A stretch of 41,657 nt of DNA from Marinobacter sp. (GTDB taxonomy: Bacteria > Pseudomonadota > Gammaproteobacteria > Pseudomonadales > Oleiphilaceae): assembly GCA_014762755.1 (NCBI GenBank), contig JABURI010000092.1:1-41657 (forward strand), in the 5' to 3' direction. The position numbers and the translations under genes were made by a program. Under the pieces are notes generated by a model. It had not been told where the DNA came from. It worked only from the letters and a program-made list of their open reading frames with translations, and made no database searches. Below, in pieces: positions 14,608 to 16,146 of the stretch; the first letter of the stretch is position 1; every line of letters starts with the position of its first letter.

Positions 14608-15120
14608 ATGACCAGCCAATTCACTCCGGCATTCATCGATTTCGAGGCGTCGAGCCTGGATCTGATTGCAAGCTACCCGATCGAGGTGGGTATCTGCATG
14701 CCGGGTGGCGAACTGCACAGCTGGTTGATCCGGCCCCATGTGCTCTGGCAGGACTGGTCACCGAGTGCGGAACAGATTCACGGCATCTCCCGGGACACCC
14801 TGACCGAGGAAGGCAAACTGGTGGAGGAAGTGGCCCACCACCTGAACCAGCTGCTGCCGGAGCAGGTGTTCTGTGACGCATGGACCTTCGACAGCTTCTG
14901 GCTGCACCGGCTGTTCCGGGCCGCCAGTGTGCAGCCCGAATTCCAGCTGGAATCCATCTCCATGCTGCTGAACAGCCAGCAGGTCCGGCAGTGGTCGGGC
15001 GTGCGCCAGCAGGTAATCTCGGAACTGGGGTTACCCGTTCACCGGGCCGCCAACGACGCCCTCATCCTGCACAAGACCTGGCGGCGTCTTATTTTCCAGG
15101 ACGAAGCCGCACTGCAATGA
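14608..15120 (+). CDS. 3'-5' exonuclease (DnaQ-like/DEDD fold)
   Basis: FIDFEASSLDL ... HGISRDTL ... NDALIL. Confidence 0.8.
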   Translation: MTSQFTPAFIDFEASSLDLIASYPIEVGICMPGGELHSWLIRPHVLWQDWSPSAEQIHGISRDTLTEEGKLVEEVAHHLNQLLPEQVFCDAWTFDSFWLHRLFRAASVQPEFQLESISMLLNSQQVRQWSGVRQQVISELGLPVHRAANDALILHKTWRRLIFQDEAALQ

Positions 15121-15340
15121 ACTGCAGGCCGTCCTTGAGGGTATGCAGGGTCCAGTAGGTCGCCAGGGCCATCAGTGCCGCGCCTGCGACGGTAAAGCTC
15201 AGGTCATCCCCTACGGTCTTGTCCTGGGCCAGCACCATGTAGATCGCCAGGGCGACGATCAGTGCAATTTCAACGATAAAATCAGAACGGAACTTGTTTC
15301 TGGCAGATCCGGGTTCGTCGGGCATTTGCTTAGGTTTCAA
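15089..15340 (-). CDS. Small hypothetical membrane protein (83 aa)
   Basis: Two hydrophobic segments; convergent with the exonuclease gene. Confidence 0.6.
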   Translation of the reverse strand: MKPKQMPDEPGSARNKFRSDFIVEIALIVALAIYMVLAQDKTVGDDLSFTVAGAALMALATYWTLHTLKDGLQFIAVRLRPGK

Positions 15341-15445
15341 CCTCTGTATTCAGGATAAGTTGATTGACAGGTTAGTGTGCAAATTATCGCCAATCCGGGC
15401 TGATGGTTCTGTACGAAGTAGTGGCTACGAACTTTCCGAGATGCC

Positions 15446-15473
15446 AAAAAAAAACGCAGCCAAGATGGCTGCG
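15446..15473 (-). terminator. Rho-independent terminator on the minus strand with no upstream CDS
   Basis: CGCAGCCA-TCT-TGGCTGCG followed by 9 T in minus-strand reading. Confidence 0.9.
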
Positions 15474-15617
15474 TAGAAAGGAGAGATCCATTGATACCCG
15501 ACTCGGCAGGTATCGCGGATTGCACAACGTAAAAACACGTGACGCTGCGCATTATGCGCTTGCACACCGACCAGGTCTGTACGGGTTTGCCGAAGCCGGC
15601 GGGCTCTTGCAAACCGT
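15446..15617 (-). ncRNA. Candidate orphan structured sRNA
   Basis: Three consecutive stem-loops (15584-15615, 15547-15559, 15493-15514) before a strong terminator; no convincing ORF. Confidence 0.5.
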
Positions 15618-15663
15618 CCGATAGCCTATACACTGAGTAGTGAACCGAAACCAAAGAGCCGGT

Positions 15664-15753
15664 ATGACCAGGATGATTTTACAGTTCATTGTTTACCCAG
15701 CCGCTGATTGCCAGAAAGGGCAGTCTGCGCGCGCCATGGTGAAAGACATCTAA
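15664..15753 (+). CDS. Possible 29-aa small ORF / leader peptide (MTRMILQFIVYPAADCQKGQSARAMVKDI)
   Basis: ATG..TAA upstream of a plus-strand terminator that precedes the 15874 gene. Confidence 0.25.
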   Translation: MTRMILQFIVYPAADCQKGQSARAMVKDI

Positions 15754-15807
15754 CGGCTTTCGGTCAGTCCCGGGAGCCTTCGCAGCGACCGGGTCAGGTT
15801 CTCCGCC

Positions 15808-15846
15808 AAACCCCGGTTGCCCTTGGCTCCGGGGTTTTTGTTTTTG
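15808..15846 (+). terminator. Rho-independent terminator/attenuator
   Basis: AAACCCCGG-N12-CCGGGGTTTTTGTTTTT. Confidence 0.85.
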
Positions 15847-15873: not shown

Positions 15874-16146
15874 ATGAAAAGACATCCGACAACACGTGCG
15901 GCAAACCAGCCGATGGGCAACCGCCAGGGCCCGATCAAGCGCCCGGAAAAACTGCCCCTGCTGGATGCGATCTGCAAGAAGCTGAACCAGCGAGTCAACC
16001 TGGATGACGAGCAGCGGGTGCTTGGGCTGTATGAGCGAGGCTGGATCTTCAACGGTGTCCTGGCCAACCTCAGTGGTGCGGAAGCCCGATACGTGCGGGC
16101 GTTGGCGACGCGCTACAACTCCTGGATCGCCCGTCAGGTCGCCTGA
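15874..16146 (+). CDS. Hypothetical protein (90 aa)
   Basis: ATG with AAGGAG SD; ordered composition. Confidence 0.6.
   Translation: MKRHPTTRAANQPMGNRQGPIKRPEKLPLLDAICKKLNQRVNLDDEQRVLGLYERGWIFNGVLANLSGAEARYVRALATRYNSWIARQVA

Follow-up and report, generated by a model that had tools for sequence, protein, structure and literature searches.

Does the minus strand at positions 15446-15617 of a Marinobacter sp. contig carry a gene for a small RNA (sRNA), and if so, where would this RNA begin and how could it act? The window, i.e., the whole stretch of DNA analyzed, comprises 41,657 nucleotides, and a sequence-only reading had placed there an orphan structured sRNA, with three stem-loops before a strong terminator and a promoter TTGGTT-18-TATAGG. 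All the sequence elements that it listed are present in the window: the terminator ACGCAGCCA-TCT-TGGCTGCGT-T9 (15446-15474, minus strand), the repeats GGTTTGC..GCAAACC, GCGCAT-A-ATGCGC and GATACC..GGTATC, and the TTGGTT-18-TATAGG string (15649-15654 and 15625-15630). Its core call, the orphan structured RNA on the minus strand, is backed by genus-wide synteny, sequence conservation and covariation, whereas the extent and the promoter that it had assigned had to be revised. Judging from the comparison of genomes, the existence of a stand-alone sRNA gene of Marinobacter on the minus strand appears almost certain, and its RNA most likely runs from about 15543 into the terminator, as far as 15446, over about 97 nt. 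Its parts are as follows:

15446..15543, minus strand: sRNA of about 97 nt, with the likely +1 at 15543 and the end in the U-tract at 15446-15447
15517..15543, minus strand: near-invariant 5′ segment GUCACGUGUUUUUACGUUGUGCAAUCC of 27 nt, a weak hairpin ACGUG-UUUU-ACGUU followed by GUGCAAUCC
15486..15520, minus strand: hairpin 2, with an invariant AUCC/GGAU base and a freely varying, covarying upper stem GAUACCUG/CGGGUAUC
15475..15487, minus strand: CU-rich linker AUCUCUCCUUUCU (anti-Shine-Dalgarno), containing the single-stranded CUCUCCUUU, the proposed seed
15446..15474, minus strand: intrinsic terminator ACGCAGCCA-UCU-UGGCUGCGU with a U-tract (U8-9), the best of the 5 terminator-like sites found in the scan (1.6 expected)

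Marinobacter is known for growth on hydrocarbons and for life alongside algae, and we found no regulatory RNA described in this genus in the literature searched.

Conservation and loss in Marinobacter

The covariance model R1 matches the window at 15447-15543 with 109 bits, and 66 other Marinobacter genomes and one sister genus carry the sRNA at the same chromosomal position; in its own genome it is a single copy by BLASTN. The 18-nt core pattern TTTTACGTTGTGYAATCC, run over a species-wide collection, gave 67 Marinobacter loci, of which two are redundant copies within a single assembly, and R1 scores 51-113 bits for 67/67 loci and the window. The seeming two sRNA copies of M. mobilis were discarded as assembly redundancy, both contigs being 100% identical over 6.9 kb. 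Since TTTTACGTTGTGYAATCC was the search pattern, it is invariant by construction in the 67 loci, where only the remainder of the 5′ segment counts as independent; GTCACGTG, GGATCTCTCCTTT and the terminator lie outside the pattern. The same invariant blocks were seen in the alignment A1, whose 30 genomes were collected by BLASTN without the pattern.

Synteny is kept in essentially every locus, with a divergent 90-aa gene (a response-regulator gene beyond it) on one side and a small membrane-protein gene, an exonuclease gene and queC on the other; in the sister genus (G223) the membrane gene still lies downstream of the RNA. In 392 genomes from the order and 369 from the class, only Marinobacter and one further genus of its family gave convincing matches, in a search whose strict Infernal filters may miss distant homologues. 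Matches of 27-33 bits in the order and the class were rejected as homologues in other families, and the four order matches that were aligned were driven by the terminator or by a generic hairpin. The plasmid and phage collections gave no match.

By BLASTN the locus was matched in 36/36 genomes of the same genus, in G022, G027 and G034 through flanking or terminator sequence only. Both flanks are present and the sRNA is absent in G022, G034, G262 and G408, with terminator-like remnants in two of these four, a clean loss in one subclade; in G027 the adjacent divergent gene is absent as well. A tree of neighbouring proteins unites the genomes without the sRNA in one clade (support 0.89) that also includes M. 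aromaticivorans, where the sRNA is retained, and one or two losses would therefore account for this distribution.

Likely promoter and extent of the RNA

The conserved blocks outside the RNA are the following:

15551..15556, minus strand: -10 box CATAAT, this or a near variant in almost all of 30 genomes, 7 nt upstream of the conserved GTCACG
15575..15595, minus strand: -35 region TACAGAC with the upstream conserved box CTTCGGCAAACCC, conserved
15607..15635, plus strand: divergent promoter-like block TTGCAA-16-TACACT for a plus-strand transcript, overlapping stem 1 and the TATAGG box of the sequence-only reading
15380..15417, minus strand: separate promoter, TTCGTACAGA..GATAATTTG, belonging to the downstream membrane-protein gene and not to the sRNA gene, conserved 3′ of the terminator and still present in genomes that lost the sRNA

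A promoter scan found none. The distance from ACAGAC to GTCACG is 37 nt in 27/30 genomes and differs by one nucleotide (36 or 38) in the remaining three, and between these two motifs all but CATAAT varies freely. Such a combination of constant distance and free sequence is that of a promoter spacer and thus likely marks the true promoter, so that the sRNA promoter is likely TACAGA-19-CATAAT, with constant spacing and a variable spacer sequence. We infer that the gene is transcribed, and the start site near 15543 and the length of about 97 nt would follow from the promoter spacing. The gene is a stand-alone one, with an intrinsic terminator and its own promoter, the latter recognized by conservation only. 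The box CTTCGGCAAACCC is a possible activator site. GGCAAACNCNTACAGA has essentially a single occurrence per genome, in 55/61 Marinobacter genomes (3 in total for the reversed control), and a regulon sharing the promoter box was rejected, the box sequence being found once per genome.

A longer RNA of about 170-190 nt, transcribed from TATAGG as had been proposed at the outset, would agree with the low folding energy of the whole 172-nt stretch (-67.9 kcal/mol, z = -3.7, 1/200 shuffles equally good); the last 97 nt alone fold with z = -4.4, and 0/200 shuffles are equally good. However, its first two stems would fall within promoter DNA, 5′ of the likely start site, and in the upstream helices only 82%, 38% and 54% of cells pair, with a covariation of the stem set of 0.10, little above the 0.06-0.08 of slid controls. 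The divergent block is kept in four genomes without the sRNA body, and in L030 an insertion of 18 nt separates it from the sRNA promoter. Because the TATAGG/GTTTGCAA block survives in the genomes that lost the sRNA, we assigned it to the divergent transcript; the constant spacing, moreover, belongs to the downstream promoter, and we regard the longer RNA as very improbable.

Even less credit is due to a cis-acting leader or attenuator of the membrane-protein gene (15089-15340), a reading which would fit the position of this gene, on the same strand and beginning about 110 nt past the terminator, but which is close to refuted: the gene has its own conserved promoter 3′ of the terminator and persists in genomes from which the sRNA is deleted, and a recognizable copy of it is absent from at least 12 genomes that have the sRNA. 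The 83-aa product of this minus-strand gene belongs to no Pfam/NCBIfam family. The motif TACAGA-19-(C/G)ATAAT is common to the sRNA promoter (15551-15581, minus strand) and the membrane-protein gene promoter (15380-15417, minus strand), which hints at a shared mode of transcription.

Two open frames cross the region, one of 105 codons on the minus strand (15337-15654) and one of 73 codons on the plus strand (15403-15624). Neither frame is conserved among relatives: their U-run near the 5′ end of the RNA counts 4, 5 or 6 residues, and between the 5′ end and CUCUCCU they have anything from 53 to 71 nt. A coding origin was rejected on account of these frame-breaking indels.

Structure of the RNA and comparison with known families

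In the predicted fold of the RNA a weak 5′ hairpin is followed by hairpin 2, the linker with its open CUCUCCUUU, and the terminator. The 5′ 27 nt are its most conserved part in A1, invariant or almost so in the 30 genomes, and are also kept in the sister genus. The upper stem of hairpin 2 changes on both sides in 7/8 pairs (A1), and in the sister genus its base reads AUUC/GAAU instead of AUCC/GGAU, with the pairing preserved; the terminator stem covaries as well, with double changes in 7/8 pairs (64 sequences). Over the whole of the alignment A3 (64 distinct sequences) double changes occur in 14 pairs, 145 cells compared to 32 in shuffles, and 94.2% of cells are paired, compared to 27-43% with slid partners, although A3 was fitted to the covariance model and the A1 covariation numbers are therefore safer. 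A conserved secondary structure is borne out by compensatory changes in hairpin 2 and the terminator. The linker is invariant across CUCUCCUUU in A1, while the adjoining stem drifts, and the mean unpaired probability predicted for CUCUCCUUU is 0.95 (68 sequences), as for a conserved and accessible anti-Shine-Dalgarno segment.

No Rfam family was reached at thresholds in the whole window. Three families share traits with the RNA. The neisserial NmsRA/NmsRB (RcoF, NgncR_162/163; RF02877) resemble it in their three stem-loops, UC-rich single-stranded anti-Shine-Dalgarno segments and intrinsic terminator, but they are sibling copies with two such segments, whereas the Marinobacter RNA is a single copy with one CU-rich linker, another sequence and another genomic place. 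Membership in RF02877 was rejected, the window having no match at the gathering threshold and the best score being 29.6 bits (cut-off 52) in one relative only. The Burkholderia sRNA ncS025 (RF02869) is similar in the 3′ half, i.e., a hairpin, a GAUCUC..CUUU linker and a GC-rich terminator with a U-tail, but the similarity is confined to this half and the 5′ segment has no counterpart; its scores, at most 33.7 bits against a cut-off of 46, were found in 5/20 relatives and do not support membership. GcvB (RF00022), with a GU-rich stretch (GUUGUG) followed by a hairpin, is the best sub-threshold match in sense orientation in the window, and homology was rejected at 19.8 bits against a cut-off of 42; none of 20 relatives repeats this match, and the weak ones that do recur among them were ncS025 and, once, NmsR. 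The RNA family of this locus is real and new, belonging to no Rfam family, though the general kind of RNA is already known. It would supply Rfam with a new family, and its function is directly testable in a laboratory strain, e.g., M. nauticus, given the covariance model, the dozens of orthologues, the promoter defined here and the natural deletions.

Proposed mode of action, targets and neighbouring candidates

In Neisseria, reporter and mutation tests have established that the UC-rich single strands of NmsR repress by Shine-Dalgarno coverage, and NmsRA represses several mRNAs in this way (PMC5362039, PMC9973317). By analogy, we give a probability of roughly 60% to a trans-acting sRNA of the Hfq type, in which the CU-rich linker would mask Shine-Dalgarno sequences. 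A dedicated gene would be transcribed from its own promoter TACAGA-19-CATAAT, perhaps with the help of an activator at CTTCGGCAAACCC, and the intrinsic terminator would end a product of about 97 nt with the weak 5′ hairpin, hairpin 2, single-stranded CUCUCCUUU and a U8-9 tail. Hfq would sit on the U-rich 3′ end, and the linker would pair with (A)AAGGAGAG(AU) Shine-Dalgarno sequences and block in trans the translation of several mRNAs. Hfq binding, repression and the targets, like the start site, are what we infer. The hfq gene is present in 5/5 genomes tested, its own included.

The target screen gave many possible targets, none of them widely conserved. AAGGAGAG-N(2-11)-ATG occurs 16-26 times per genome, compared to 2-7 for the reversed pattern, an enrichment that ordinary Shine-Dalgarno sequences would also give, and the 9-mer AAAGGAGAG shows no excess over its reversed control before ATG. 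When the genes downstream of the AAGGAGAG sites were clustered over seven genomes, no gene had AAGGAGAG at its start site in the majority of them; two orthologous sets came out best, one of a short-chain dehydrogenase gene and one of an OsmC-like gene (named by the look of the protein sequences), each reaching only three genomes, and a five-genome cluster was dismissed as a shared target since it mixes non-orthologous dehydrogenases.

Two further points weigh against the linker model: it leaves the 5′ 27 nt, the most strictly kept part, unexplained, and one subclade lives without the sRNA. Pairing mainly through the invariant 5′ segment UUUUACGUUGUGCAAUCC, with the linker mainly part of an Hfq-binding module, would account for the conservation of this segment, in which UUGUGCA has a mean predicted unpaired probability of about 0.55; moreover, a U-rich stretch before a terminator hairpin is an Hfq module described, going by its title, in reference 48 of PMC5362039. 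Yet a search of five genomes for TGCACAACG upstream of ATG gave, in most of them, only a mild excess over the reversed control, the sites reveal no obvious shared gene in these five, and the conservation of the linker (CUCUCC) exceeds mere U-richness, which leaves pairing mainly by the 5′ segment rather unlikely. Strictly conserved single-stranded parts could also reflect recognition by a protein, the RNA being a decoy that titrates Hfq, a CsrA-like protein or another RNA-binding protein; the loops, however, hold no repeated GGA, the sole GGA of the mature RNA lies within the base of hairpin 2, and repeated motifs of any kind are absent, so that a decoy seems improbable. Beyond masking by the linker, we consider as a speculative extension an sRNA specific to the genus whose two independent modules for pairing would be the invariant 5′ segment and the anti-Shine-Dalgarno linker; this sRNA would coordinate a Marinobacter-specific regulon under a dedicated activator and would have been discarded by one subclade.

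On the divergent side, the orphan 90-aa gene (15874-16146, plus strand) is 71-100% identical across Marinobacter and has no Pfam/NCBIfam family. A possible small protein of 29 aa, MTRMILQFIVYPAADCQKGQSARAMVKDI (15664-15753, plus strand), is encoded divergently from the sRNA, with a frame and a C-terminus (RAMVKDI) conserved in about 45 loci; the conserved 3′ end of this frame may partly stem from the RNA candidate that follows it. This second conserved structured RNA candidate (15752-15842, plus strand; GGCTTTCGGTCAGTCCCGGGAGCC..GCGACCGGG..TTCTCC..terminator) precedes the 90-aa gene, has 71-99% identity in 69 loci and no Rfam family. A pseudoknot of GGCU/AGCC and CGGUC/GACCG is possible in it, the pairs of which hardly vary, and its TCTCC is predicted to be able to pair with AAGGAGA of the ribosome-binding site of the 15874-16146 gene itself.
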